Source: a virus. From it: a stretch of DNA of 38,417 nucleotides. The number at the start of each line of letters is the position of its first letter. The stretch's first letter is position 1. The stretch is from positions 1 through 38,417 of the IMG/VR virus record IMGVR_UViG_3300035703_000204; one strand, written 5' to 3'. Of this stretch, positions 257-38,417 are shown piece by piece. Made by a program: the position numbers and the translations under genes. The notes below the pieces were generated by a model. The model saw only the letters and a list, made by a program, of their open reading frames with translations, was not told the DNA's origin and searched no databases.

Positions 257-312
257 GGATTACCTCAAAAACCCTGTAAATCTGGAAGCAGCGGAATCGA
301 AGCCCGCTGCCC

Positions 313-9088: not shown

Positions 9089-9397
9089 TCAACTCACGAT
9101 TGAAACCAAATCATCCAGTGCCTGTTCGGCTTCGTTCTGCGTTTGCGGTTCGAACTGCGGTGCGAGGTCCTTCGGAGTTCGCTTGTCCTTGTAGTCCGAC
9201 CACTGCTGAATCATGTGGTAGGTCTGATGCGAAATGTCGATCGAAGTCCGAGTCGCTCCGATTCCATACATGGCAGCATAGATCGCCCATTCGCGGAGCT
9301 GCCGGACGTTCAGGTGTTCAGTCAGAACGTCCGGGTGAATGCACTTATCGCCGCCGATCGCCAGACACAGCTCAAACTCTAAACGTCGCTGTCTGAC
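9089..9397 (-). CDS. Tail assembly chaperone, frameshift extension (GT part)
   Basis: This is the -1 frame entered from the gene at 9379-9756. The frame is open without stops from 9397 to the TGA at 9091-9089. A -1 slip at 9403-9397 would fuse 120 residues of the short form to about 102 residues here (about 222 in total). The extension contains the pattern HLNVRQLREWAIYAA, which resembles the RQLxEWxAY motif common in T/GT-type chaperone parts. It has no good start of its own: the first ATG (9271) lies well inside and lacks a ribosome-binding site. In lambda and many tailed phages this fusion loads the tape measure protein with tail tube subunits. Confidence 0.85.
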   Translation of the reverse strand, partial: VRQRRLEFELCLAIGGDKCIHPDVLTEHLNVRQLREWAIYAAMYGIGATRTSIDISHQTYHMIQQWSDYKDKRTPKDLAPQFEPQTQNEAEQALDDLVSIVS

Positions 9398-9756
9398 TTT
9401 TTTTCGTCAGTGTCTTCCGCGACCTTGTCTTCGCCGCCGTTGTGCTGGCTGATGATCTTGATCAGCCCAGTCAGCCGGCGAGAACGAACCTTGCTCATCA
9501 GGTTGTAAACGTCATCGACGGACTTGAAGACAGGCTTGCCGTGTTCGTCAATCACAGAGTCCACAATCAGAGCCGCCTGGGCTCTGCGTTCGATCGCCTG
9601 GCTCTTTCCAGCCGATTCGCCGTACTGACGCATCCGAGCCACGGAAACAGACTTGATTCGCACAATCACTTCCGGATCGTCTGGCAGAGGATATTCGCGA
9701 ACATCCTCGACCAAAGCTTCTTCCAGATGTTGAGCACCGAAAAACGTTTTCGACAT
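9379..9756 (-). CDS. Tail assembly chaperone, short form (G-like)
   Basis: 125 residues, with an acidic/lysine-rich end (EDTDEKKSDSDV). It lies directly before the tape measure gene, the fixed place of the G protein in long-tailed phages. The N-terminal part (EEALVEDVREYPLPDDPEV, then IVRIKSVSVARMRQY) has the shape of tail chaperones that recognise the tape measure. Near its end the sequence GAA AAA AAG creates an A-AAA-AAG slippery heptamer, allowing a fraction of ribosomes to make the extended form. The start ATG at 9756 is followed by SKTFFG. It is separated from its upstream gene by the REPIN-like repeat at 9777-9841. Confidence 0.85.
   Translation of the reverse strand: MSKTFFGAQHLEEALVEDVREYPLPDDPEVIVRIKSVSVARMRQYGESAGKSQAIERRAQAALIVDSVIDEHGKPVFKSVDDVYNLMSKVRSRRLTGLIKIISQHNGGEDKVAEDTDEKKSDSDV
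9397..9403 (-). promoter_or_regulatory. Programmed -1 ribosomal frameshift site (A-AAA-AAG)
   Basis: On the minus strand the heptamer A AAA AAG sits in the zero frame (GAA-AAA-AAG) 18 bases before the stop of the short chaperone. It is a known efficient slippery heptamer in bacteria. The -1 frame after the slip is open for 102 codons and carries the expected downstream domain. Confidence 0.85.
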
Positions 9757-12307: not shown

Positions 12308-13273
12308 TCAGAGCGTCAGCGGTTCGGTGTCAACGATGCTTTCCGTCACAACAATCGGAATGCCTTCGTAATCGGTCGGAGTCGGAGCTTCGCGGCCCGT
12401 GTCGTTGGTGGCGGTTCGCGAGTCTCGCAGTTGTCGGCGCGAACGCTTTGTCATGAACAACGCATCCGGACGAACGCCAACCGGGAACTTTTCAAGCAGT
12501 GCTGAAAGCCGTGCGTCCGTCAGACGGCAGCCGGAATCTTCAGTGAGCTTGCGGATGCGAGCGATGAACCGAGGGCTTGAAACCTGCAGGCCAGGGTACA
12601 GGAACATTTCCTGAAAGTACGCGGTGTAAGGATTGCCATCAGTGTCGCGCACATCGCGTTCGCTTACTTCGGTCGGAAGCATCGAACCATTGGCCCCGTA
12701 AACCCACTGAACAGCCTTGCTGCCGAACTTGACCGCCCAAACGCTGGAACCAGTGTTTGCAGTTGTACCGCCGGCATCAACCAGGAAGTTGGCGTCCACG
12801 ACGTCCAGCAATCCGTTGAAGCCTTTGGCGTGTCCGCCCAGCGCGATTCCCGCGGCTGATCGGCCGTAATAGAACTGGCGCCCGAGCTGCTGCATACCGG
12901 CTTCCAGATGGCCGGCCGCTTCGTCGGCCATTAGAACCTGCCATCCGTCCTCCGACTTGTCGGCAATAGCCTTGTCCACGTCCCAGCGTGGGTTCATGAT
13001 GAAGGTTTCAACGATACGGTTTTCGTATCGTGACTTCAGGCCTGTGCTGCCCTGATTGCCGTCGCGGAAACCGACAACAGGCAAACTAGTTCGAATCAAC
13101 GTCTTGTAAGACGTTCCGACGATGGTTCGAGATTCGCCGATGCCTGGGATGGCAACGCCGGTTTCTGGATGAACGCCCGACACTTCCGGAACGGCCCTTG
13201 TCGCTTCTTCAATCATCCCAACGGTTGCGTCTGATCCGTTGCGTTTGGCAATGTCAAGGATTGTGAGTCCCAT
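12308..13273 (-). CDS. Major capsid protein
   Basis: 321 residues with a good GAAGG ribosome-binding site before the ATG at 13273. It follows the protease/scaffold gene and precedes the cement-like gene. Its sequence fits a phage major capsid protein of HK97-type fold: an N-terminal helix-rich arm, a central region (GSSVWAVKFGSKAVQWVYG near residue 185) and a C-terminal segment ending in EGIPIVVTESI, a form common in capsid subunits that end in a 'P-I-x-V-T-D/E' strand. No separate scaffold gene is seen, consistent with fusion of scaffold to the protease upstream. Confidence 0.85.
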   Translation of the reverse strand: MGLTILDIAKRNGSDATVGMIEEATRAVPEVSGVHPETGVAIPGIGESRTIVGTSYKTLIRTSLPVVGFRDGNQGSTGLKSRYENRIVETFIMNPRWDVDKAIADKSEDGWQVLMADEAAGHLEAGMQQLGRQFYYGRSAAGIALGGHAKGFNGLLDVVDANFLVDAGGTTANTGSSVWAVKFGSKAVQWVYGANGSMLPTEVSERDVRDTDGNPYTAYFQEMFLYPGLQVSSPRFIARIRKLTEDSGCRLTDARLSALLEKFPVGVRPDALFMTKRSRRQLRDSRTATNDTGREAPTPTDYEGIPIVVTESIVDTEPLTL

Positions 13274-13368
13274 GATTGTTTTCCTTCAAAATGGTTTCGG
13301 TGTGTGAGACGCGAAAGCCCGGAAAACTGTCTGCCGTAATCATGCGAGGGGAAAGCCCCGCGAGCGGT
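13274..13368 (-). promoter_or_regulatory. Leader region of the capsid gene with a small hairpin
   Basis: A 95-base gap without a gene separates the protease/scaffold stop from the capsid start. On the minus strand the segment 13361-13344 can fold into a six-pair GC stem with one bulge (GCGGGG-CTTTC-CCCTCGC). No T-run follows, so it is more likely an attenuator or processing hairpin than a terminator. A capsid-specific promoter could lie here but no convincing -35/-10 pair was seen. Confidence 0.35.
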
Positions 13369-14439
13369 CTATTCTTTGCCGCGGAGTTTCATGGATGCCG
13401 CGAACGCAGCACGTGCGGGAGTCGTCGCCAGTGAAAACTGAGTTGTCTTTTCATCGACAACAGTTTTCTCCGCTGGCTTGCCATCGGTGCCGACGGGTGT
13501 TTCCTGGCCGAGAGCAGTGGTGGCGAACTGCTTTAGCTTAGCTTCGAGGTCTGCGATTGTCGCATCCTTCGCCGCCACGGTAGTCGCAAACTGCTTCAGT
13601 TCCTCACGAGCGGCATCACGTTCGTGAAGTGCAAACTGATACCGAGCGGCATCGAGTGACAGCCCAGCCGTCAAGAACTCGGTTCCCTTCGGTCCGAATT
13701 CCGCGCTGAACTGCTTCAGCGTTTCGATGCTGACGTGATTCGCTGGCACCTGTGCAAACTGCTGAGTCGATTCCGCCGGAGCGGTGGCACCTGCAGCGGG
13801 TGCCGTTCCTGTGGACTTGGTCACTTCGTCGGTCTCCGTCGAAGGTGTCATGATGAAGACCGAAACGGTTTCAGTCTCAGATTGTGATTCAGAAAACTGC
13901 GTTCGTGTGTCACGATCGACACCGTAACGGCAGATTGACGCAGCTCGCAGAGGCCACTTTCGAACGACATAGCCCGGCCCCGCGAACTGCATGTCATTCA
14001 CGGCAGTGGTGACACCGTCCGGAACGTACTCGAGTTCGACGTCTGTTCCGTACCAATCGATTGAAGATTCGTACGGAACTCCGGCCTTGCCCTTCTTGCT
14101 GACTTCGTCCGCTTTGTCGCCTTGTTCCACAACGATCAAAGCCCCGGACAATTCCAGCCCTGCTTCAGTAATTGCGAACTGGTTCGCGTAACCCAGGACT
14201 GCGTCAAAGTCGTGGGTGTAATCGATCGTGATTCCCTGTTCTCGCCACTGCATGCCGGCGAAGTCGTGGACGATCCGCCCCCAGTAGTAGTGATCGACCG
14301 GAGCTTTCGACCTGGCCAGCATGCTAAACGGCCGAACGTCCGTACCTTCGCCAACGTCGGCGAACCGCATTGTCGCCGGCATGGCGAAACGCATGGCTTC
14401 CTTTGGCACTGCTGACGGGTCTACTGTTTTCAGCGTCAT
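13369..14439 (-). CDS. Prohead protease fused to scaffold domain
   Basis: 356 residues, starting at ATGA overlapping the portal stop. The N-terminal half has the features of a phage prohead serine protease: a TIDYTHDFDAVLGYA segment with H76, and YESSIDWYG with S125/S126, separated by a GLELSGALIV strand. The C-terminal half (from about 205) is Ala/Thr/Gln rich, then a charged helical region (DAAREELKQFATTVAAKDAT), which fits a scaffold that the capsid assembles on. The protein therefore probably cleaves capsid and scaffold during head maturation. An internal ATG (MTPSTETDEVTK, near 13850) could yield a scaffold-only product as in lambda-type phages, though its ribosome-binding site is weak. 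Confidence 0.78.
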   Translation of the reverse strand: MTLKTVDPSAVPKEAMRFAMPATMRFADVGEGTDVRPFSMLARSKAPVDHYYWGRIVHDFAGMQWREQGITIDYTHDFDAVLGYANQFAITEAGLELSGALIVVEQGDKADEVSKKGKAGVPYESSIDWYGTDVELEYVPDGVTTAVNDMQFAGPGYVVRKWPLRAASICRYGVDRDTRTQFSESQSETETVSVFIMTPSTETDEVTKSTGTAPAAGATAPAESTQQFAQVPANHVSIETLKQFSAEFGPKGTEFLTAGLSLDAARYQFALHERDAAREELKQFATTVAAKDATIADLEAKLKQFATTALGQETPVGTDGKPAEKTVVDEKTTQFSLATTPARAAFAASMKLRGKE

Positions 14440-23126: not shown

Positions 23127-23387
23127 CTAGTCACAGAGCACAACGCAGCTCCAGTCGCCGCGGTCTTCAATGCGGATGATTCCTTTGCCCCTCAATGAAC
23201 CAATGGTGTCCATCGTGATCGCTCGCATGTCGAGTGATCGGCCGGCACTCTGATACCAGAGCCATGGTCCCATGCCGAGCACCTGCCCTTCAGATCCACG
23301 CCGCAATGCTGCCTTGAGAACGTTGCCTGCCTTGAGTCTGGCCACCACTACATGCTGGTGTTTGCTGAGCTTGGTTCGTTGGGCCAT
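23127..23387 (-). CDS. Small unknown protein on minus strand
   Basis: 86 residues from ATG at 23387, with a weak GAG site. It has a basic helical start (QRTKLSKHQHVVVARLKAGN) and a compact fold ending in IGSLRGKGIIRIEDRGDW, which could be a small winged-helix or DNA-binding protein. It stands alone between two plus-strand genes and starts 37 bases before the next gene on the other strand, so they share a control region. Function unknown. Confidence 0.5.
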   Translation of the reverse strand: MAQRTKLSKHQHVVVARLKAGNVLKAALRRGSEGQVLGMGPWLWYQSAGRSLDMRAITMDTIGSLRGKGIIRIEDRGDWSCVVLCD

Positions 23388-23423
23388 GGATCTCGTATCC
23401 GCTGCTTGAGGTTGTGACAAGCC

Positions 23424-23606: not shown

Positions 23607-23632
23607 AAGATAGCACGTTGCACTCTTAGTGC

Positions 23633-23652: not shown

Positions 23653-23904
23653 ATGAACCAGATGATCGACAAAGATGATTTGAAGATTAGACGTCACCTC
23701 AAGACGTTTATGGCTGAACGCCTTGAATCGCTAGAGATGTCCGAGGCAGATTTGGCACGCGCAACTGGCGACAGCAAAACGCAGATTGGCCGCGTGGCAA
23801 AAGGTCTCAGCACACCATCAGTTGCGTTTGCCTCAAGGATCGCAAAGGCTTTGCAAACTTCTCTTGATGAGTTGTGTGGCATTGCTGAATCTGTGACTTC
23901 CTGA
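23653..23904 (+). CDS. Cro/CI-type helix-turn-helix repressor
   Basis: 83 residues with an HTH_3-type domain: MSEADLARATGDSKTQIGRV is the helix-turn-helix and SVAFASRIAKALQTSLDELC the following helix. No C-terminal dimer or cleavage domain is present, so it is a short Cro- or CI-like protein. The ATG at 23653 directly follows GGAG; a second ATG at 23662 (residue 4) has better spacing. Matching operator-like sites flank the gene on both sides (23633-23644, 23906-23923, 23941-23958). This layout suggests it controls its own expression and that of a rightward transcript, and so could govern lysogeny. Confidence 0.8.
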   Translation: MNQMIDKDDLKIRRHLKTFMAERLESLEMSEADLARATGDSKTQIGRVAKGLSTPSVAFASRIAKALQTSLDELCGIAESVTS

Positions 23905-24765: not shown

Positions 24766-26139
24766 ATGATTGCAGCAGTCGATCCGAACGGCCGGACTCC
24801 GAAGTCTCGCAAGTCTCAGCGCGTGGAAGTGCATGTTGTTGTCCATCTGCAGATGCCGCAGTGGATGCAACAGCCTCAGCAGATCACTTTGCCACCGATC
24901 CCAATGCCGGAGTTTCGCGGCGCGATGCAAGAGCAGCAGGTTATCCCCGAATTTGTTGTCACCCAGGCCGCGAACACTCAGGCCCAGCCGGTTGTGACAA
25001 CTTCGACGCCGACGGCAGCAGCTCCAGTTGCACGAACAGAACCGTCCGCTTCGCTGGTCGAGTTGTACGAAACCCATATTGCACCGAGGGAACTGGAACG
25101 GAACGAGCCGCGAACCGTTCGTCAGGACCTTTCGCGGATTCAAAAGTTCCAGAATTGGCTGGATTCTTCGGGGCAGCGGAGTGGGTATCCGCTGCCCGAG
25201 TATCTCCAGTGTTTTCAGCAGTCGAAGGATTTGCTGTTCGAATACTCGCAGTTTATCAGGTCAAAGGAATCCGGTTGTTCCTCGCCGACAGTGTCGCAAA
25301 ATCTCAACGCCATCATGAAACTCTGCCGTTGGGCTTTCGAAAACGGCAAGCTGACAAAGCTGCCGAAGTATCCAACGAAGGGCGACATCAACATGATGAA
25401 GCTTGCAACGGACGATTGCGAATTCCAGGGCGAGCCTGTGACGATCGAAGAAGTGAAGCTAATGCTGTCCCCGAAAGTTTTGGACGGTTGCGACTGGCCG
25501 CAGTTGGGAAATGTGCCTCCGGCAAGGTTTTGGGAAACCGTCCTGCTTGCTCACTACTGTTTGGGGTTCCGGTCTCAAGACTGGTTCGCCGTTCGAACGT
25601 CCAACAAACAGGGGTTGATGTGGTCGGACGTGATCACGGAAACCCGCTGCCCGCGTTTGGAAGATCTCCACAACGAACACGGCTGGGTGTGGTACCTGGT
25701 CCACAAGACGAAAAAGAAATCCCAGCGAGCTGCGAAGCCCGTGAAGCTGCTTGTTCCGCTGTCTCGACGTCTTCGCGAGTCAATCGAGTTGTTTCGCGGA
25801 ATCGATCCGGAGCGAGTCTTCCCGCTGCCTTGCAACGGAAAGTATTGGTCGGATCAGGTTTGCGGAATACTGGAACGAGCCGGTTTGGACGATGCGTCCA
25901 GGAAAGCCGCCCGGAAACCTTCGATCGAACTGAGTCTCGGTCAAAAATCCGTGGCTTCATTTCGCAAGGGCTGCGCCGCGATGTGGGCAGACCACGTCAG
26001 CGAGAGTGCAGCCAGTTATCTGCTGAAGCACAGTGTGACCGAGGGCGGAGTCTCCGCGATAACTCGCGAACACTATCTGCAGGCCTATCGGCCTTTGCGG
26101 GAGATTGTCCCCGCGCTGGAAACCTTACCACTCTGGTAA
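24766..26139 (+). CDS. Tyrosine recombinase (integrase)
   Basis: 457 residues from ATG at 24766. The N-terminal 90 residues are unusually Gln/Pro/Thr rich, followed by a core-binding domain (SLVELYETHIAPRELERNEP near 96-115 and SPTVSQNLNAIMKLCRWAFE). The catalytic part has R269 (CLGFRSQDWFAVR), a lysine-rich hairpin VHKTKKKSQRAAKPVKL, R400 (VASFRKGCAAMWADH), H422 (LLKHSVTEGG) and Y437 (TREHYLQAY). The conserved first His of the H-x-x-R box is replaced by Ala (A397), and the distance from His to the catalytic Tyr is longer than usual. It is probably the phage integrase; attachment sites were not located. Activity should be checked because of the missing His. Confidence 0.85.
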   Translation: MIAAVDPNGRTPKSRKSQRVEVHVVVHLQMPQWMQQPQQITLPPIPMPEFRGAMQEQQVIPEFVVTQAANTQAQPVVTTSTPTAAAPVARTEPSASLVELYETHIAPRELERNEPRTVRQDLSRIQKFQNWLDSSGQRSGYPLPEYLQCFQQSKDLLFEYSQFIRSKESGCSSPTVSQNLNAIMKLCRWAFENGKLTKLPKYPTKGDINMMKLATDDCEFQGEPVTIEEVKLMLSPKVLDGCDWPQLGNVPPARFWETVLLAHYCLGFRSQDWFAVRTSNKQGLMWSDVITETRCPRLEDLHNEHGWVWYLVHKTKKKSQRAAKPVKLLVPLSRRLRESIELFRGIDPERVFPLPCNGKYWSDQVCGILERAGLDDASRKAARKPSIELSLGQKSVASFRKGCAAMWADHVSESAASYLLKHSVTEGGVSAITREHYLQAYRPLREIVPALETLPLW

Positions 26140-30892: not shown

Positions 30893-32416
30893 ATGTCCAC
30901 AGTCACCAAATCCCGTCAACCAAAAATGAAACTTCGCAAAGACACTTCTTCGCCGGCTGAAGAATCTGGAGCGTCCGAAACCGCCGGACAATTGCCAGTC
31001 GAACAGATGATCTCCGTCACTTGCGTGGAAGTCAGCCACAACGATCGAACCGAATTTGATGACAACTCTATTGAAACGCTCGCCCGATCGATCGACGAAC
31101 GCGGACTCGATAACGCGATCACCGTGCGTCACAAACATCTTGACGTTGTGAGCGGCGAAGAAACGTTTGAGCTCATCGCCGGCGAACGCCGCCTGCGAGC
31201 TGTCAAAAGTCTGAAATGGCCGATGATCAGGGCACGTATCATTCGAGCCGATGACAAGACTGCCGACCTGTTGAGACTGGAAGAGAATCTGCTTCGAGAA
31301 GATCTAAGCCCAATCGACCGAGCCGCCGGCATCAAACGGTATATCGAACGGCATGGCGAAAGTCAGGCAGTTGTCGGAAAGCGGTTCGGCATGACTCAGG
31401 CACAAGTCAGCAACCTGTTGAGACTTCTGCAGCTCACTCCGGAATGGCAGGGCGAGGTAAAGGCCGGCCGCGTACCGCACACAATCGTTCGTGACTTGCT
31501 TTGCCCGTGGAGTCACCGGCCGCAGTTGCTCGATTATGTGTTTGAGCAAACGAGGTCCATGGCCGACGATGACGAAATTGATCGCGAATGTCTGGTCTAC
31601 ACGATTCACGAAGGCGTGCGGACTTTGTCACGAACGTTGCGAAAGACGGAGTATTTCGTTCATGCTCCAGTGAGTCCAACGCAATGCTATTTCAAGGTCG
31701 ACGACAAGAACCGGCATATTCTGGACGTGGAGGAAATGCCAAACGCCGAGCCGCGGGCATGGAACATTGAGGCCTGGGAGAAGCTGAACGAACCAGCAAT
31801 CAAGTCTTACAAGGACAAGCAAAAGAAGGAACGCGAGTCTGCAGGCTCACCGAAGGGCAAAAAGTCAAAGGGCAGCGACAAAGAAGAAACCGTCGACATG
31901 TTCAAATTGAAACGAGCGTTGTCGAAGCAGCTCCGTGAAACACTTGCGTCCGTCATCAATGCGAAGAAGCACAAAGCCAGCATCGTCCGGCTGTTCATTT
32001 ATTTGGCCGGCCAGGAAGATCTTTCCAAAGCGTTGTATGGCGATGAAGCGTATTCGACGGATGAAATGAAACACGTCGAACGAATTGCTGGCATCGACGA
32101 TGCGGCCTTGCCTGGCCTGATGTGTGACGTGGTCAAGGCAACGCTGATCGACGAATACAAGTACGAACATCCCGCCGCTGTGCAGATGCTGGCTTCCATG
32201 CTGCCGTTCGATTTGGCTCACGACTGGCTGCCAAACGCAGAAGTTCTGCAGTGCTTCCCAGACTCGCAGTTGATTGCCTTCGCTCACGATTGCGAAATCA
32301 ATCACGAACAGCCACGCGCGGAACTAATCGAAAGCCTGTTAAAGTCTGGACTCTGGCAGAAAGGCCATCTGCCCGCCGAAGTCTCCGAGCTGCTTCCCAG
32401 TTCGGCGTTGAATTAG
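30893..32416 (+). CDS. parB: ParB-like protein without ParA
   Basis: 507 residues from ATG at 30893, with AAAGGA upstream. It has the ParB/RepB/Spo0J domain: box I GERRLRA at 97-103, box II ENLLREDLSPIDRA at 131-144, and an HTH near 157-178 (SQAVVGKRFGMTQAQVSNLL). The rest is a long helical C-terminal extension with a Lys-rich linker (KGKKSKGSDKEE) and further alpha domains. No ParA ATPase gene is adjacent. A parS-like palindrome sits just upstream and four related sites are scattered over the genome. It could partition a plasmid-like prophage, organise the genome for packaging, or be a regulator. Confidence 0.85.
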   Translation: MSTVTKSRQPKMKLRKDTSSPAEESGASETAGQLPVEQMISVTCVEVSHNDRTEFDDNSIETLARSIDERGLDNAITVRHKHLDVVSGEETFELIAGERRLRAVKSLKWPMIRARIIRADDKTADLLRLEENLLREDLSPIDRAAGIKRYIERHGESQAVVGKRFGMTQAQVSNLLRLLQLTPEWQGEVKAGRVPHTIVRDLLCPWSHRPQLLDYVFEQTRSMADDDEIDRECLVYTIHEGVRTLSRTLRKTEYFVHAPVSPTQCYFKVDDKNRHILDVEEMPNAEPRAWNIEAWEKLNEPAIKSYKDKQKKERESAGSPKGKKSKGSDKEETVDMFKLKRALSKQLRETLASVINAKKHKASIVRLFIYLAGQEDLSKALYGDEAYSTDEMKHVERIAGIDDAALPGLMCDVVKATLIDEYKYEHPAAVQMLASMLPFDLAHDWLPNAEVLQCFPDSQLIAFAHDCEINHEQPRAELIESLLKSGLWQKGHLPAEVSELLPSSALN

Positions 32417-32438
32417 GTTGCGGGGATTTAGGTTTTAT

Positions 32439-32462
32439 AGCATCGGACGTGGTGTCCGCTGC
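32439..32462. repeat. Array hairpin element E0 (inverted orientation)
   Basis: AGCATCGGAC-GTGGT-GTCCGCTGC lies between parB and the first array gene. It is the reverse complement form of the elements found further right, here with a perfect CGGAC/GTCCG stem. Confidence 0.6.
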
Positions 32463-32495
32463 CCCTGCAATGAGTTAAAAACAAAGGGTTTTACG

Positions 32496-32768
32496 ATGGT
32501 TCAAACTTTGGATGAATGTGTTTCTCGACTACAGCAGATGGCTTCGGAAGATCAACAGACGTGGGATCTGTCGCCCAACGATCAAGAAGCGATCAGGCTT
32601 GCTGTTCGGGTGCTAAGCGTGGTGCAGTATCTCGACGAAATGCCAGCGTTTGTCAATTCGCACCCGTTGGCAGGCGGTGGAATGGCTCTTGTGGCCGGAA
32701 TCCGCGAGGTTGAGGCAGAATCTCATCTGTCAGCATTTTCGATTATGGGTGAATCGTTTTACGAGTGA
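32496..32768 (+). CDS. Array gene 1: unknown small protein
   Basis: 90 residues from ATG at 32496 with AAAGGG upstream. It is helical and hydrophilic, with VQTLDECVSRLQQMASEDQQ at the start, LAVRVLSVVQYLDEMPAF in the middle and a Gly-rich loop (HPLAGGGMALVAG). It is the first of a run of small genes separated by hairpin elements. No family recognised. Confidence 0.6.
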   Translation: MVQTLDECVSRLQQMASEDQQTWDLSPNDQEAIRLAVRVLSVVQYLDEMPAFVNSHPLAGGGMALVAGIREVEAESHLSAFSIMGESFYE

Positions 32769-32816
32769 TAGGCAGAGGACGACGCTTCCTCTGCTTTCAA
32801 AAACATTGGGGAAATC
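32769..32816 (+). repeat. Array hairpin element E1
   Basis: Starts right after the previous stop: TAG-GCAGAGG-ACGACGCTT-CCTCTGC, a perfect seven-base stem, then TTTCAAAAACATTGGGGAAATC before the next ATG. GGGGA doubles as the ribosome-binding site. Confidence 0.75.
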
Positions 32817-33092
32817 ATGAACATGGAACTAAGTGAGTCTGGCACAATTGCGTGGCCAGAGGACGCTGGTGTATGGATGGGGTTCATTGATTCGGTCGGT
32901 TGGTTTCCGATGCGGACGAAAGAACTCACTGACGATCTAGGATCAGGTGGTTGCCTCGCGATCTTGGCTCAGTTCCCGGAGTCGCCTAGCAATTGGCCGT
33001 TTACGTTTCAGGGATGCCATCCAGCCAAGGCGTGGCGTCGGCCGACCGTCGACGAAATGGAACGCGCTAAAGTATTTTATGGGCTAAATTAG
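32817..33092 (+). CDS. Array gene 2: unknown small protein
   Basis: 91 residues from ATG at 32817, with TTGGGGA upstream. It is Trp/Phe-rich and acidic (SGTIAWPEDAGVWMGFIDSV; later SPSNWPFTFQGCHPAKAW). The family is not recognised. Such short proteins with many aromatic residues in phage accessory arrays often block host functions, but nothing here proves it. Confidence 0.6.
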   Translation: MNMELSESGTIAWPEDAGVWMGFIDSVGWFPMRTKELTDDLGSGGCLAILAQFPESPSNWPFTFQGCHPAKAWRRPTVDEMERAKVFYGLN

Positions 33093-33140
33093 GCAGAGGA
33101 TTGGCACTCCGCACATATTGAAAACATTGGAGATACTCGC
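33093..33140 (+). repeat. Array hairpin element E2
   Basis: Follows the previous TAG: GCAGAGGA-TTGGCAC-TCCGC, then CATATTGAAAACATTGGAGATACTCGC before the next gene. The tail ACATTGGAGA corresponds to the ACATTGGGGA of E1. Confidence 0.65.
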
Positions 33141-33410
33141 ATGATGACGGAATTGGACAAGTACAACGAGTCGCTTGATCGTGCCCTCGTGGACTACATG
33201 AGAGGCAAAGAGTCATCTTTCGACGAACACTGCCAGCGGTTCAACCTCGCAGACAAAATTCCGGCCGATCCCTTCGCGAAACGCGGATCAGTCATGAAGA
33301 TGGTTACAGCCAAAACCAATCTACCAATGTGGGCTCGATGCTTGGCGAAGCGATGGCTTGAGAACCATGGTTTTCAGTCGTGGGACGATGGCGATATCGT
33401 TTTGTCATAA
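33141..33410 (+). CDS. Array gene 3: unknown small protein
   Basis: 89 residues from ATG at 33141. It is charged and helical (TELDKYNESLDRALVDYMRG, EHCQRFNLADKIPADPF), with a Lys/Arg-rich and Trp-containing second half (TKTNLPMWARCLAKRWLENH without the leading residues being conserved elsewhere). No motif is recognised. Its leader (E2) has a GGAGA ribosome-binding site. Confidence 0.55.
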   Translation: MMTELDKYNESLDRALVDYMRGKESSFDEHCQRFNLADKIPADPFAKRGSVMKMVTAKTNLPMWARCLAKRWLENHGFQSWDDGDIVLS

Positions 33411-33450
33411 CAGGCAGCGGATGCACAGTCCGGTGCTGGGGAGAGTAGTA
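33411..33450 (+). repeat. Array hairpin element E3
   Basis: CAG-GCAGCGGA-TGCACAG-TCCGGTGC-TGGGGAGAGTAGTA before the next ATG. Seven of eight arm positions pair. GGGGAGAG is the ribosome-binding site. Confidence 0.75.
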
Positions 33451-33702
33451 ATGGACGAACTAAGACAGCGATTTGAAAAATGGATCGCGTCACCGCCATT
33501 TGAAAAGCGAATTGCAAGGTTTGCGGACGATCCAGAAAAAGCAGCCTGGCCCGGATCGTATCGACAGATTGAGGTAGAACTGGCCTGGCAGGCATGGCAA
33601 GAGGCGGCAAGACAATCAGCAGGACCGACTGACGAGGAACGCGGCTTGAAATCGTTCGGCGAGTCGATGGCGAACTATCAGGCGAACAATCTGAGGCAGT
33701 AA
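33451..33702 (+). CDS. Array gene 4: unknown small protein
   Basis: 83 residues from ATG at 33451. It is helical with DELRQRFEKWIASPPFEKRI at the start, VELAWQAWQEAARQSAGP in the middle and an acidic/Gln-rich end. The Trp-x-x-Trp pattern in the central helix recurs in small phage proteins of unknown function. A tail region upstream of the chosen ATG is non-coding element sequence, so earlier starts are rejected. Confidence 0.6.
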   Translation: MDELRQRFEKWIASPPFEKRIARFADDPEKAAWPGSYRQIEVELAWQAWQEAARQSAGPTDEERGLKSFGESMANYQANNLRQ

Positions 33703-33720
33703 CAGGCAGCGGAGCACAGT
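33703..33720 (+). repeat. Array hairpin element E4 (half copy)
   Basis: Only the left half of the element, CAG-GCAGCGGAGCACAGT, is present before the next ATG. Its GCGGAG serves as the ribosome-binding site, showing the element itself can initiate translation. Confidence 0.65.
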
Positions 33721-33906
33721 ATGTGGCTACGGAACAATCAGGGCTATTACATCGCGGAGATTCACGGCGTGAACTACGTGACTTGGGTATCCGAAAGAAA
33801 CAAATCACACGCCGCTATTTTTCCGGAATATCTACTTTCGTGGTGGATTGAAATCATTGGTAAAATGACTGGCGAAACCGTCGAGGCTGTGCAGCCAGTG
33901 GCGTGA
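33721..33906 (+). CDS. Array gene 5: unknown small protein
   Basis: 61 residues from ATG at 33721. It is aromatic-rich (NQGYYIAEIHGVNYVTWVSE; EYLLSWWIEIIGKM), a small beta-hairpin plus helix layout. No family is recognised. Confidence 0.55.
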   Translation: MWLRNNQGYYIAEIHGVNYVTWVSERNKSHAAIFPEYLLSWWIEIIGKMTGETVEAVQPVA

Positions 33907-33944
33907 TAGGTAGCGGAGCACACTTCCGGTGCTTTGGGGGAACG
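33907..33944 (+). repeat. Array hairpin element E5
   Basis: TAG-GTAGCGGAGCACACTTCCGGTGCTTTGGGGGAACG before the next ATG. It has the AGCAC/GTGCT stem, and GGGGGA is the ribosome-binding site. Confidence 0.75.
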
Positions 33945-34136
33945 ATGAAAAGGCCAGATGACAAGAAAGCCAATGCCCGGCGAAAACAGCTTGAAGCCGA
34001 AGTGGAACTGCTGGAAAGTGAGATTGCGGAGGCGATCCATTGGAGCAGGCCTGGCGACATTCGCAGCAGTCTTGCAAGGGTCATTCGTTTTGCTCGGGAT
34101 CTAGGGCGGGAATTTGGGATTGAGGATTTGGAATAG
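33945..34136 (+). CDS. Array gene 6: small charged helical protein
   Basis: 63 residues from ATG at 33945. It is highly charged (RPDDKKANARRKQLEAEVEL, LARVIRFARDLGREFGIED) and looks like one or two long helices, possibly a coiled coil. No other feature is visible. Confidence 0.55.
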   Translation: MKRPDDKKANARRKQLEAEVELLESEIAEAIHWSRPGDIRSSLARVIRFARDLGREFGIEDLE

Positions 34137-34171
34137 GTAGCGGAGTACAGCTTCTCTGCTGGGAGGAAATC
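34137..34171 (+). repeat. Array hairpin element E6
   Basis: GTAGCGGAGTACAGCTTCTCTGCT pairs AGCGGAG with CTCTGCT with one mismatch; GGGAGGAAATC is the ribosome-binding site before the next ATG. Confidence 0.7.
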
Positions 34172-34489
34172 ATGAGTACAACAATGTCGCTTGAGGAAGC
34201 GGATGCGGTCATCAAGTCCCTCACCTCACAGCTTATTGCGGCAAAATCCGATCGGAACAGGCTGAAAGCCCATATCCAGACGGCGTGCGATTTGTTCCGA
34301 GCTGCAGACGAAGCACGACTCGACGGCGTCCATGCAGCCCATGAGGAATCGCAGAAGTGGAAGTCGGAAGACGACTGGTACGGATGGAATTTCCATCAGG
34401 GCAAAGCCAGTGGAATGACAGAATCCAGTATCATTTTTCATAGAGTGCTTCGGGGCCTCAAGTTGGCTTTGAAGGAAGCAGCGGAATAA
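34172..34489 (+). CDS. Array gene 7: helical unknown protein
   Basis: 105 residues from ATG at 34172, with GGAGG upstream. It is mostly helical (SLEEADAVIKSLTSQLIAAK, AHIQTACDLFRAADEARLDG), with a Trp/Tyr-rich part (KWKSEDDWYGWNFHQGKASG) and a helical end. The last codons (GCA GCG GAA TAA) are the start of the next element, so element and gene overlap. No family recognised. Confidence 0.6.
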   Translation: MSTTMSLEEADAVIKSLTSQLIAAKSDRNRLKAHIQTACDLFRAADEARLDGVHAAHEESQKWKSEDDWYGWNFHQGKASGMTESSIIFHRVLRGLKLALKEAAE

Positions 34490-34512
34490 CTGTAGGATAA
34501 AGGAGTCGCGTG
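34478..34512 (+). repeat. Array hairpin element E7 (partial, overlaps gene end)
   Basis: GCAGCGGA overlaps the last codons and stop of the upstream gene, then ATAACTGTAGGATAAAGGAGTCGCGTG leads to the next ATG. AAAGGAG is a strong ribosome-binding site. Confidence 0.55.
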
Positions 34513-34599
34513 ATGAAATACGACGTGCGGCACGTCTGGATTGCTGGAATAATTGGCTATGGTGTCGGTGTGCTGGTGTGCGTGTTGTGCTCGCTGTAG
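34513..34599 (+). CDS. Array gene 8: 28-residue membrane peptide
   Basis: 28 residues, ATG 34513 to TAG 34597-34599. It is a single hydrophobic span (VWIAGIIGYGVGVLVCVLC) after a basic start KYDVRH. The strong AAAGGAG site and the place between two elements make it a plausible real gene despite its size. Confidence 0.55.
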   Translation: MKYDVRHVWIAGIIGYGVGVLVCVLCSL

Positions 34600-34643
34600 A
34601 GCACGCAGCGGAATAACTGTGCTCTGCTTGCAGGAGTGATCAA
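34600..34643 (+). repeat. Array hairpin element E8
   Basis: AGCAC-GCAGCGGAATAACT-GTGCT, followed by CTGCTTGCAGGAGTGATCAA before the next ATG. GCAG/CTGC pairing is also possible. CAGGAG is the ribosome-binding site. Confidence 0.7.
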
Positions 34644-34865
34644 ATGCAATGGTTTCCGCGTGACGCCTCGTGGTGGGGAAAGCCAGACACGAGTCGGCTG
34701 AAAAAAGTGCATCTGATGCATCCGGAGAGACTTGCCAGGCATGGCCAAAATACGGCACTTTGCAGCGGTCAGATTGCATTGGTGGAAGATATGCCGGTCG
34801 ACGATCCATCCGAGTGGAGACAGTGCGATAGGTGCCGAAAAATGATCAAGACAAGTAGCGGATAA
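34644..34865 (+). CDS. Array gene 9: small Cys/His protein
   Basis: 73 residues from ATG at 34644. Basic first half (KKVHLMHPERLARHGQNTAL) and a possible zinc site formed by LCSGQ and QCDRCRKM with nearby His. Its end (AGT AGC GGA TAA) is again the start of an element. No family recognised. Confidence 0.55.
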   Translation: MQWFPRDASWWGKPDTSRLKKVHLMHPERLARHGQNTALCSGQIALVEDMPVDDPSEWRQCDRCRKMIKTSSG

Positions 34866-34890
34866 CCATTCCGATGCCTGCTGTTTTCGG
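34855..34890 (+). repeat. Array hairpin element E9
   Basis: GTAGCGGATAACCATTCCGATGCCTGCTG overlaps the end of the previous gene; GGA...TCC and AGC...GCT pairs remain. No gene follows directly; a promoter-like sequence comes next. Confidence 0.6.
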
Positions 34891-34896
34891 CTGTTT

Positions 34897-34925
34897 TTGT
34901 CAATCTTTGCAATCTCTGTTATTTT
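34897..34925 (+). promoter_or_regulatory. Promoter candidate with operator-like dyad
   Basis: TTGTCA and TATTTT are separated by 17 bases, in a short AT-rich stretch. The -10 overlaps an inverted repeat TTATTTTG-TATTG-CAAAATAA (34919-34939), which could be an operator. Confidence 0.6.
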
Positions 34926-35029
34926 GTATTGCAAAATAAGACGATGGTGTTATTGTACTGATGTCGCGAGTGACAAAGTGTGACTCGGACAGCAAACAAG
35001 TGAGGCCGCAAGCCTCGGGGAGAATTGAC

Positions 35030-35332
35030 ATGAAACGAATCGAAGCACTTGAATGCGTTGTGGCACCAGACGTAAGCGAAACGTTCGGAAAGTGGATTTA
35101 TTGCTGCTGGCCAAAGGGTGTGTTGTCAGTGAAAGATCAACTGTGGCTCAAAGAATCAGGATGGCGTGATTTCAGCCCTTCGTCTGGCGAGAAGACCGGG
35201 CCAGCGGTTGATAAGTTCTTTCACGCAAATGTCCTCACCGGATTGATCTTGCGATTACCAGTAGAAAAGCAAGACGCGGAGTGTGAGCACGAAGCAGAAA
35301 GCCGCGAGCAGTGGAATTCTTGGAGCTTCTGA
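35030..35332 (+). CDS. Array gene 10: unknown protein
   Basis: 100 residues from ATG at 35030, with a GGGGAG site; an ATG at 34961 is in frame but weak. It has a mixed fold (RIEALECVVAPDVSETFGKW, YCCWPKGVLSVKDQLWLKES) and an acidic His/Glu end. It follows the promoter candidate at 34897-34925, so it may start a separate transcript. A terminator follows at 35346. Confidence 0.6.
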   Translation: MKRIEALECVVAPDVSETFGKWIYCCWPKGVLSVKDQLWLKESGWRDFSPSSGEKTGPAVDKFFHANVLTGLILRLPVEKQDAECEHEAESREQWNSWSF

Positions 35333-35345
35333 TTCCCTCGCCAGT

Positions 35346-35381
35346 CCGGTCCCGGCCTAAGCAATCGGGACCGGCTTTTTC
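35346..35381 (+). terminator. Intrinsic terminator with competing outer repeat
   Basis: The stem CCGGTCCCG / CGGGACCGG is followed by CTTTTTCG. An outer 11-bp inverted repeat (35339-35349 with 35393-35403, CGCCAGTCCGG / CCGGACTGGCG) shares bases with the inner stem, so two mutually exclusive folds are possible, as in an attenuator. Confidence 0.85.
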
Positions 35382-35423
35382 GTCGGTACTTGCCGGACTG
35401 GCGACTTTTTTCGGAGATCAATC

Positions 35424-35648
35424 GTGGCAAAGAAAAAAGCAAAGGCAACTCGCAAGCCTGGCGGCGGTCGCAAATCCTCCTACGGTGAGCCGACTGTACC
35501 GTTTGCTGCTCGACTCCCGGAGTCAGTGATTGAAATCGCAAAGTTTGTCGGCGGCGGGAACGCAACTCAGGGGATTGTCGAGATCGTCAAGCAGTCTGTG
35601 CAGTATCGGCTGGAGCATGGGTCCGGTGAGCCAAGATTTTTGGAGTGA
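35424..35648 (+). CDS. Array gene 11: small basic DNA-binding-like protein
   Basis: 74 residues from ATG at 35424, with GGAG-type sequence upstream. The N-terminus is Lys/Arg rich (AKKKAKATRKPGGGRKSSYG), then PFAARLPESVIEIAKFVGGG and a helix (TQGIVEIVKQSVQYRLEHG), a layout like ribbon-helix-helix proteins with a basic arm. It follows the terminator and may be a regulator of the array. Confidence 0.55.
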   Translation: MAKKKAKATRKPGGGRKSSYGEPTVPFAARLPESVIEIAKFVGGGNATQGIVEIVKQSVQYRLEHGSGEPRFLE

Positions 35649-35689
35649 TAGTAGCGGAAACCATCTCCGGTATTTTGGGGAAAATTATC
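35649..35689 (+). repeat. Array hairpin element E10
   Basis: TAGTAGCGGA-AACCATC-TCCGGTATTTTGGGGAAAATTATC. TAGCGGA pairs with TCCGGTA except one position. GGGGA is the ribosome-binding site. Confidence 0.75.
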
Positions 35690-35887
35690 ATGCAATTAGC
35701 CGAAGGTTTTGGCGATACAATCCGAATCAAACTTGACGCCCTCGAACAGCAGCGACCGTTCGCGGAATTGGTGGCCGCAATGCGGCAATATTTGGCGGAT
35801 ACACTCGGTGCAGAACAGGCAGCCGAGTATGAACACGTTACCGTTAACGATCCGGGATTCGCGCATTTCCGCCGAATTGCAAGATAA
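35690..35887 (+). CDS. Array gene 12: unknown small protein
   Basis: 65 residues from ATG at 35690. Starts QLAEGFGDTIRIKLDALEQQ and continues as helices (PFAELVAAMRQYLADTLGA) with an acidic end. An in-frame ATG at 35645 would run through the element and is rejected. Function unknown. Confidence 0.55.
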   Translation: MQLAEGFGDTIRIKLDALEQQRPFAELVAAMRQYLADTLGAEQAAEYEHVTVNDPGFAHFRRIAR

Positions 35888-35919
35888 GCAGCGGACTCGG
35901 AATCCGATAGTGAGGAAAA
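35888..35919 (+). repeat. Array hairpin element E11
   Basis: GCAGCGGA-CTCGGAATCCG, then ATAGTGAGGAAAA before the next ATG. CGGA/TCCG remains paired and GAGGA is the ribosome-binding site. Confidence 0.65.
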
Positions 35920-36117
35920 ATGGACACTGTGAAAATCAAATACAGTAAGCAAATGCGAGATACTGCCGTTGCTGAGGGCCGATCCCTGATCACGGTGGAT
36001 GTCCCCGGAATGACCTATCAGGGCACATGCACCCAAGAGCAACGGCGCGAGATAATCCAACTGTTGACGCGGTGGATTAAGTCCGAATCTGAGAACGAGC
36101 ACGCAGCGGATCAGTAA
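35920..36117 (+). CDS. Array gene 13: unknown small protein
   Basis: 65 residues from ATG at 35920. It has a short beta part (TVKIKYSKQMRDTAVAEGRS, LITVDVPGMTYQG) and a C-terminal helix. The last codons (GCA GCG GAT CAG TAA) hold the start of element E12. It is the last gene of the plus-strand run; the leftward run ends at 36156. Confidence 0.55.
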   Translation: MDTVKIKYSKQMRDTAVAEGRSLITVDVPGMTYQGTCTQEQRREIIQLLTRWIKSESENEHAADQ

Positions 36118-36133
36118 ACCGGTGCTTCACCAG
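36103..36133 (+). repeat. Array hairpin element E12 (end of array)
   Basis: GCAGCGGATCAGTAAACCGGTGCTTCACC overlaps the end of the last array gene. It lies between convergent transcription units and, with the following CCAG-CGGT-CTGGTTTT hairpin, may help termination. Confidence 0.6.
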
Positions 36134-36155
36134 CGGTCTGGTTTTCCGCGAGTTC

Positions 36156-36947
36156 TCAGACTCGCCAGTCCAAAAGCAGAGCGCCTTCCACGAGTGGAGG
36201 GCTCACCAAAGTATCCGTTTCACGCCAGATCTGATATTTCCACGAATCGCCATACGGTCCGTTCGGAATATCGTCGCGATCTATGACAATTGTGACCGAG
36301 GTCACACCAGCAGAGTGAGAAACTGCGGAAATGCTGCCAGTGATTTTCCGTTCCAGCGACGATCGTGATCCGGGCGAAGCTCGGAACACCAACTGACTTA
36401 GAGCACCTGCCGTGAGCTTCGCGTGCAGCACTGCGCCAGCGTCAGTGATTGTGCGGGTCAAACTGGAGTTGATTGCCGACACATAATCAGAACCGACGAT
36501 CAGGCTGATTTCTCCCGCCGGAGTCACCGCGCCAACAACGGAAAGCCTAGCCCCAACAATTTGTGCCGTCCGCTGTCCGATCTGAGTCAGCAACAGAGCC
36601 TGCGCATCCGTCAGCCCGCCGGCCGCAATCTCTTCGATGGCTGCCAGGACAGGATCCAAAGCACCGGAGTCCAGTTCCGCTGCCCCCGTCAACACATCAG
36701 CAACGATCGTTTCACCAACTCCCAGCCATCCTGATTGCGGCACAAGCCCGTCAGCATCAATCACCGCCGCCGACAATCGCTCTGTCCATGTCTCAGCAAC
36801 GTCTGCGATAAACCAACCGGACGTGCTCGTCTCAGTCAGCGCATCACCACCCGCATTGACGAGCGACTGATCGGAAGTTTTTCGCAACCACAGAGCAAGC
36901 CCTGTAGTTCCGGATAGTTGTGGTGCGAATACTTTGACAGTGGGCAT
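36156..36947 (-). CDS. Tail-associated protein (putative)
   Basis: 263 residues; ATG at 36947 overlaps the upstream stop (TAATG). It is Ala/Gly/Ser/Thr rich and beta-like, with VKVFAPQLSGTTGLALWLRK at the start. Helical AGGLTDAQALLLTQIGQRTA in the middle separates two beta regions, and the second ends in YQIWRETDTL. The pattern resembles phage tail or baseplate-upper type proteins. Last gene of the leftward run after crossing the circle join. Confidence 0.55.
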   Translation of the reverse strand: MPTVKVFAPQLSGTTGLALWLRKTSDQSLVNAGGDALTETSTSGWFIADVAETWTERLSAAVIDADGLVPQSGWLGVGETIVADVLTGAAELDSGALDPVLAAIEEIAAGGLTDAQALLLTQIGQRTAQIVGARLSVVGAVTPAGEISLIVGSDYVSAINSSLTRTITDAGAVLHAKLTAGALSQLVFRASPGSRSSLERKITGSISAVSHSAGVTSVTIVIDRDDIPNGPYGDSWKYQIWRETDTLVSPPLVEGALLLDWRV

Positions 36948-37763: not shown

Positions 37764-38417
37764 TTAGACAAACGTGAGAGCCATTCGGCGAGTAACGCCG
37801 TCATCACCGCGAACAACTATGTTGCCAGTGGTGTTAGATGTCCGCTCGAAGGACATTTGGCCGTTGGTAGCAAGCGTGCGTGACGCAGTCGGAATGAACG
37901 TCAGGTCGGAACTGGCGACGATCGCTCTTGTGATACGACATTGATTATCATCTATTAACACAACATCATTCCCGGAAAAACTGCGAATCGTGGTTGCACC
38001 TCCAGATGCGTGCAGAGCACAATTTCCACCACCGATGAAACGATACCCCCAACCAGCATTTCCAATTACCTCGACGACTCCAGTAATCCCAACGCTTAAT
38101 CCGGTCGTAAACGCCCCCGCCGAGTTAAAATGCCCCAACTGCACAGGCCGATTCGTCCCGCCACCAGTGCCAACAGTCGAGCCAATTTGGTGAGCCGTTG
38201 CAGTGGCTTTCAGGCAGAGTGATTCCCATGACGTGCCGGAAATGGTGCCGAAGATTTCGGCCTGCATCGGGGTGAGGCCATTACGCAGAATCAGGTTGCC
38301 GCTGCTTGTGATTGCTCCAGCAGTAAGCGTGTTTGTCCCAAGGCTCAACGCTCCTGTCAGCGTTCCACCAGTCAACGCAAGCCGACCGGCAATCAGCGTA
38401 TCCACTTGAGCCGAGGA
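37764..38417 (-). CDS. Tail fibre protein, main part (begins at 256-1)
   Basis: C-terminal part of the 260-residue fibre protein that starts at 256 on the left side of the join. The frame is open to the window end, so it is not truncated biologically. After the GGTLTG shaft the sequence is Gly/Thr/Ser rich with beta-type strands (LSVGITGVVEVIGNAGWGYR, GNCALHASGGATTIRSF) and ends in GNIVVRGDDGVTRRMALTFV. These Gly/Ser/Thr-rich repeats with short strands suit a trimeric fibre tip. An internal GTG start at 38405 would cut off the N-terminus and is not used. Confidence 0.72.
   Translation of the reverse strand, partial: SSAQVDTLIAGRLALTGGTLTGALSLGTNTLTAGAITSSGNLILRNGLTPMQAEIFGTISGTSWESLCLKATATAHQIGSTVGTGGGTNRPVQLGHFNSAGAFTTGLSVGITGVVEVIGNAGWGYRFIGGGNCALHASGGATTIRSFSGNDVVLIDDNQCRITRAIVASSDLTFIPTASRTLATNGQMSFERTSNTTGNIVVRGDDGVTRRMALTFV
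38291..38417. repeat. Terminal direct repeat, right copy
   Basis: Identical to bases 1-127; see the left copy. Together they show the genome closes on itself. Confidence 0.93.

Follow-up and report, generated by a model that had tools for sequence, protein, structure and literature searches.

What is the short sequence that recurs between the small genes to the right of parB in the phage genome IMGVR_UViG_3300035703_000204, and does it act as RNA or as DNA? The window that we analyzed is the whole record of 38,417 nucleotides (nt), in which an initial annotation, made from the letters alone, had described about 13 copies of an intergenic hairpin leader between 32.4 and 36.1 kb. This number was confirmed by our finding of 13 element positions, E0 to E12, from 32439 to 36126, but the range was incomplete, as three further copies lie outside the array at 287–311, 25172–25196, and 36660–36684. 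We give about an even chance to the reading that the element is a 25-bp dyad DNA site, with inverted half-sites RGYAGMGGA at a fixed 7-bp gap, which is predicted from its sequence to be bound by a protein and to act in the small-gene operon.

Consensus, spacing and conservation of the element

The aligned joints E0 to E12 gave the 25-nt consensus RGYAGMGGA-N7-TCCGNTGCY with two 9-nt arms (Table 1). A gap of 6 to 9 bases had been assumed previously, and this assumption has to be abandoned: in a half-site scan of the whole genome with spacers of 0 to 19 nt, the spacer was exactly 7 nt long in all 14 two-armed copies, and no element family was found at any other spacing. Eleven of these copies belong to the array (E0–E3, E5, E6, and E8–E12) and three lie outside. 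E4 had already been recognized as a left half alone, and the same now applies to E7; the right arm of E2 is poor, and E0 is inverted. The identity between copies is 0.844 in the left arm and 0.705 in the right arm, but at chance level in the spacer (0.254) and about 30% in the flanks, and the arm ends form a sharp boundary of conservation. As the arms are conserved and the spacer is at chance identity and yet always 7 nt long, its sequence is free to vary, whereas its length is not.

In leave-one-out scoring, every two-armed copy ranked between 1 and 31 among about 77,000 positions, with E2 being the weakest (31), and the array copies scored 18–28 bits versus 15.8 bits for the best match in Markov-shuffled genomes. 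E0 and the three outside copies, which were not used to build the scoring matrix, reached 23–28 bits versus the same shuffle maximum. This genome has two occurrences of GGCAGCGGA-N7-TCCGGTGCT, and a pattern combining these two arms with spacers of 3–14 nt gave 20 IMG/VR stretches, all of them with a spacer other than 7 nt. A left-arm-only, element-like sequence (AGCAGCGGA) at 23382–23406 on the minus strand, beside the repressor region, stops just short of the start of an open reading frame (ORF) on that strand, with a score not above chance.

Table 1. Copies of the 25-nt element and neighboring features, with positions in the window; arms are given as tokens and spacers in lower case.
Feature	Position	Strand	Sequence and remarks
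E0	32439..32463	-	GGCAGCGGA caccacg TCCGATGCT; inverted, between parB and first small gene; 26.9 bits on -, 19.6 on +
E1	32771..32795	+	GGCAGAGGA cgacgct TCCTCTGCT; arms fully paired; 2 nt past g1 stop
E2	33092..33116	+	GGCAGAGGA ttggcac TCCGCACAT; right arm poor
E3	33413..33437	+	GGCAGCGGA tgcacag TCCGGTGCT
E4	33705..33720	+	left arm and spacer only, immediately 5' of g5 ATG; ribosome site perhaps provided by left arm
E5	33909..33933	+	GGTAGCGGA gcacact TCCGGTGCT, then TTGGGGGA, ATG
E6	34136..34160	+	GGTAGCGGA gtacagc TTCTCTGCT, then GGGAGGAAATC, ATG
E7	34477..34492	+	left arm and spacer only; g7 stop in spacer
E8	34604..34628	+	CGCAGCGGA ataactg TGCTCTGCT; spacer as in E7
E9	34854..34878	+	AGTAGCGGA taaccat TCCGATGCC; g9 stop inside
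E10	35650..35674	+	AGTAGCGGA aaccatc TCCGGTATT, then TTGGGGA, ATG
E11	35887..35911	+	AGCAGCGGA ctcggaa TCCGATAGT, then GAGGAAAA, ATG
E12	36102..36126	+	CGCAGCGGA tcagtaa ACCGGTGCT; past last array gene, no + strand gene downstream
Outside copy S287	287..311	-	between two tail genes; orientation ambiguous, as in its counterpart in contig L120
Outside copy	25172..25196		perfect 9-bp palindrome within tyrosine-recombinase-like ORF
Outside copy	36660..36684	-	exact consensus within last tail ORF
parB	30896..32416	+	ParB/Noc-like protein; not likely reader of the 25-nt element
Small genes g1-g13	32496..36117	+	28-105 residues
Moron-like unit	34879..35408	+	AT-richer leader, promoter-like site at 34897, g10, strong hairpin then T run; inserted directly behind E9

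Stop codons, dyads and ribosome sites at the gene joints

All 12 copies from E1 to E12 are oriented with transcription, opposite to E0, and begin between −16 and +4 nt relative to the end of the upstream stop codon; at E7, E9, and E12, the stop codon lies in the spacer and the last residues of the protein are encoded by the left arm. Nine joints carry, within 8–24 nt of the element end, a sequence resembling a ribosome-binding site (GGGGA, GGAG, or GAGG) and a start codon, and at E1, E2, E3, E5, E6, E8, E10, and E11 the element is directly upstream of these two signals. E9 has no start codon behind it because the moron-like unit intervenes, and E12 closes the operon, which means that an element can stand without a gene behind it. 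The earlier view that each gene forms a cassette with an element reaching from the stop codon to the next ATG is supported, as E1 to E12 are all at stops and most lead to a ribosome site and a start codon. A promoter scan of 32300–36300 gave two promoter-like sites, neither of them inside an element.

Nearly every joint of the array is built as a stop codon, the dyad, a strong ribosome site, and a start codon. In the mechanism that we propose, a predicted dimeric or paired protein would bind the two inverted half-sites, with the left half as the strong half. Given this build of the joints, the bound protein would act between genes within the operon and not at one promoter, either by a stoperator-like block or modulation of elongation, or by organizing the DNA. 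What the sequence shows is the number of copies, their fixed spacing, the restriction of conservation to the arms, the association with stop codons, the presence in coding sequence, and the lack of covariation; both the bound protein and the resulting regulation of the small-gene operon are inferred.

DNA dyad, RNA hairpin and the remaining explanations

The alternative that has to be weighed most carefully is the one favored by the initial annotation, an RNA hairpin with a 7-nt loop between genes that acts on the translation of the next gene or on mRNA processing or stability, and we regard it as unlikely, though far from negligible. The position between stop codon and ribosome site in most joints agrees with it, as does the good folding of several copies (E1, −13.6 kcal/mol; S287, −14.0 kcal/mol), and among the partial mismatches on the sense strand, G-U outnumbers A-C. 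However, compensating differences between the arms, which had been taken as evidence of selection for structure, are limited to two single examples (C-G to A-T in E1 and C-G to T-A in E10), and covariation over the aligned copies turned out to be at shuffle level. Watson-Crick and wobble pairs within the array copies amount to 71 of 90 versus 70.7 with permuted arms (p = 0.52), in all 14 two-armed copies together the arms pair with their own partners no better than with those of other copies (permutation p = 0.34), and the pair-counting covariation score was matched by 159 of 500 shuffles. The fifth pair is broken in 9 of 16 copies, on average the joints fold about as stably as their shuffled versions (mean z about −0.5), and Rfam gave no match at the gathering threshold, with the weak matches of a relaxed search being at chance level. 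Also difficult for an RNA hairpin are the copies in coding sequence and the one at the end of a gene that no other gene follows. A covariation-backed RNA structure is not supported. A tRNA-like element was rejected as well: a resemblance to a tRNA anticodon arm in contig L127 led to no tRNA there, and the array has neither a tRNA nor an Rfam match.

The substitutions follow the half-sites. C/T at position 3 and C/A at position 6 are tolerated in either half, independent of the partner, and positions 2, 4, 5, 7, and 8 show no change in the left half, but 16 in the right half. The fixed spacing over a saturated spacer, the copies in coding sequence, the inverted copy, and the independent half-site substitutions together fit a DNA-level dyad better than an RNA.

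A protein-bound dyad is also backed by the tail-region relative L120, in which the two tail-region sites keep their position and spacer. L120 9930–9954 is the counterpart of S287 in the same tail intergenic slot, with an identical spacer (CTTCGAT) and right arm, and L120 12276–12300 is a weaker counterpart of the copy in the last tail gene, at the corresponding place and again with an unchanged spacer (ACTGGAC); the latter match may be due in part to protein-coding homology. In L120, an integron-type integrase (TIGR02249, 366.8 bits versus a cutoff of 265) is encoded at 13022–14029 on the minus strand, 65 bp from the last tail gene, and the contig ends about 40 bp upstream of the integrase start at GTTAGGT, an R-box-like sequence. 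This integrase may be phage-borne or may come from a neighboring host integron.

Several points weigh against the protein-bound dyad. The strong left–right asymmetry and the two left-arm-only copies are unlike the prediction for a simple symmetric dimer, the near-constant orientation and the tight placement between stop codon and ribosome site would equally suit a role in RNA, and most copies may descend from a few duplications and would then not be independent tests. As to the reader protein, only candidates remain, namely the recombinase, the small unknown proteins, and host factors. Two small proteins were suspected to be ribbon-helix-helix regulators, but their structure models had low confidence (pLDDT 66 and 63) and were not used.

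It is rather improbable that the element is a boundary sequence without any regulatory reader, kept as a linker since homologous recombination there swaps, duplicates, or loses small genes. Such a linker would account for the identical element beside unrelated genes, and the flanks common to E1/E2 and to E3/E4, together with the identical spacers of E7 and E8 (the only such pair), indicate that joints have been copied. The moron-like unit directly behind E9 would fit an exchange at element borders but is no demonstration of one; modular recombination at these borders is possible. The linker would, however, leave the fixed spacing, the dyad symmetry, and the copies in coding sequence unexplained, arms of 9 bp are short for homologous recombination, and no swap was seen in any relative, as no relative of the array was found in IMG/VR with ParB, the concatenated array proteins, or the recombinase as seeds, and a BLASTN search of phage and plasmid collections with the array found nothing. 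Exact-pattern scans of IMG/VR returned, apart from L120, only chance matches inside genes; genome scans found nothing with a pattern including the ribosome-binding site and no relative with the terminase; and the element is absent from terminase relatives and from the tail-gene relatives L131–L137.

Two further explanations involve gene cassettes. We consider it quite a long shot that the phage has a gene-cassette system of its own, distinct from integrons, in which a dedicated recombinase or binding protein would recognize the dyad and the ready joint of stop codon, dyad, and ribosome site would allow translation-ready small genes to be added or exchanged. Slightly more remote still are core sites of a tyrosine recombinase, with 9-bp arms, a 7-bp overlap, and the array as an integron-like cassette system. 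The arm-7-arm geometry matches lambda-type core sites, the recombinase-like ORF of the phage holds one perfect dyad, and the integron-type integrase of L120 adjoins the matching tail gene. Yet strand exchange normally needs identical overlaps, and apart from E7/E8 the spacers differ in every copy; moreover, no attC-like site was seen in the joints by eye, two copies lack one arm, and the L120 integrase may belong to a separate integron.

The least probable explanation, dispersed partition (parS-like) sites read by ParB, is suggested by the adjoining parB and by other phages with ParB-like genes and dyads (PMC4351075, PMC7302621), but hardly agrees with five separate ATTTC-N4-GAAAT dyads in this genome and eight dyads of the same class, of TGATTTC-N4-GAAATCA type (TGATTTCNNNNGAAATCA), in the Planctopirus limnophila plasmid pPLIM01 (NC_014149.1). 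The five dyads are dispersed (3486, 11369, 21772, 26142, and 30846), four of them are ATTTCGNNCGAAAT, and TTTC-N4-GAAA has no occurrence beyond these dyads in the phage genome or pPLIM01. They resemble Noc/ParB sites and are probably binding sites of the phage Noc/ParB-like protein. The protein family is described in PMC7383237. ParB is thus an unlikely reader of the 25-nt element, from which dyads of this type are absent. The C1-type repressor (PF01381, HTH_3; gene at 23653–23904) is unlikely as well, since its gene is flanked by three operator-like dyads of GTTACAAATTTGTTCC type at 23629, 23908, and 23943 that are unlike the element.

Comparison with known systems and genomic setting

The array is real and well formed, and its layout is related to a known but unsolved class, of which the ESAS elements with SAS of Cluster K mycobacteriophages are the closest described here (PMC3203893, PMC11373665, PMC12699233). 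In both cases, many imperfect inverted repeats, mostly in one orientation, lie upstream of a ribosome-site-like sequence and the start of small non-structural genes, unrelated genes are attached, the left arm is better kept, and the departures give no support for RNA pairing. For ESAS, the authors favored DNA-binding proteins (PMC3203893), and as ESAS dyads were judged to be DNA-binding sites on the same grounds, this supports our DNA-dyad reading. A later study described SigA-like promoters within ESAS, whereas no promoter-like site is found in the element studied here. Furthermore, the sequence is unrelated, the arms have 9 nt instead of 17, the spacer is fixed at 7 nt instead of variable, the element adjoins or overlaps stop codons and also occurs in tail genes and coding sequence, the 13-bp SAS GGGATAGGAGCCC is not present, and the ribosome-site region varies (TTGGGGA, GGGAGG, GAGGAA). 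As sequence, arm length, and fixed spacing differ, the element is a variant of the ESAS-like kind and not a member of ESAS/SAS.

Dyads with fixed spacing that are intergenic and partly intragenic and predicted to be bound by dimeric proteins are also found in Cluster O mycobacteriophages (17 bp; PMC4351075), which likewise encode a ParB-like protein, and in Cluster EG Microbacterium phages (18 bp; PMC7302621). Their arms are near-invariant, however, with gaps of 2–3 bp, and the sites in Cluster O show no link to start or stop codons. The stoperators of Cluster A mycobacteriophages, asymmetric 13-bp targets of the immunity repressor, likewise recur as short sites at gene joints and follow the direction of transcription, as do E1 to E12, though E0 runs the opposite way and the orientation of S287 and its L120 counterpart is ambiguous; the C1-type repressor gene described above, in contrast, is flanked by different putative operators. 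With integron attC arrays, the locus shares the pattern of small genes with a repeated element, always in one orientation, behind each, but the element has only 25 nt. No GTTRRRY/RYYYAAC pair of attC R and L boxes was seen in the joints on inspection by eye (no attC model was run), and no integron integrase was found in this genome, whose recombinase ORF has no NCBIfam match, unlike the L120 ORF.

Gene-joint dyads have been described in actinobacteriophages and have been unexplained for over a decade. The same arrangement with an unrelated sequence, in another phage lineage that is probably of planctomycetes, suggests a repeated origin or a greater age than thought. This case is tractable for the function of such elements because of the spacing of strictly 7 bp, the copies with a left arm alone, and the setting aside of two phage DNA-binding proteins as unlikely readers.

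A 127-bp direct terminal repeat at 1–127 and 38291–38417 indicates that the record is a complete circular genome. The phage is temperate and has head genes of lambda type on the minus strand; the array lies on the plus strand and meets the last tail gene head to head, and none of the genes g1–g13 that were searched gave a confident family match. ARAGORN called a tRNA-Gly at 9643–9720 on the minus strand, which overlaps the ORF 9379–9756 and may be a false call. A planctomycete host is likely, as judged from ParB, whose closest informative relative among the plasmids searched is encoded by pPLIM01 (28% identity over 272 residues). This plasmid is annotated as a 37-kb phage genome, and with its terminase, portal, capsid, and tail genes together with a ParB it looks like a phage-plasmid.

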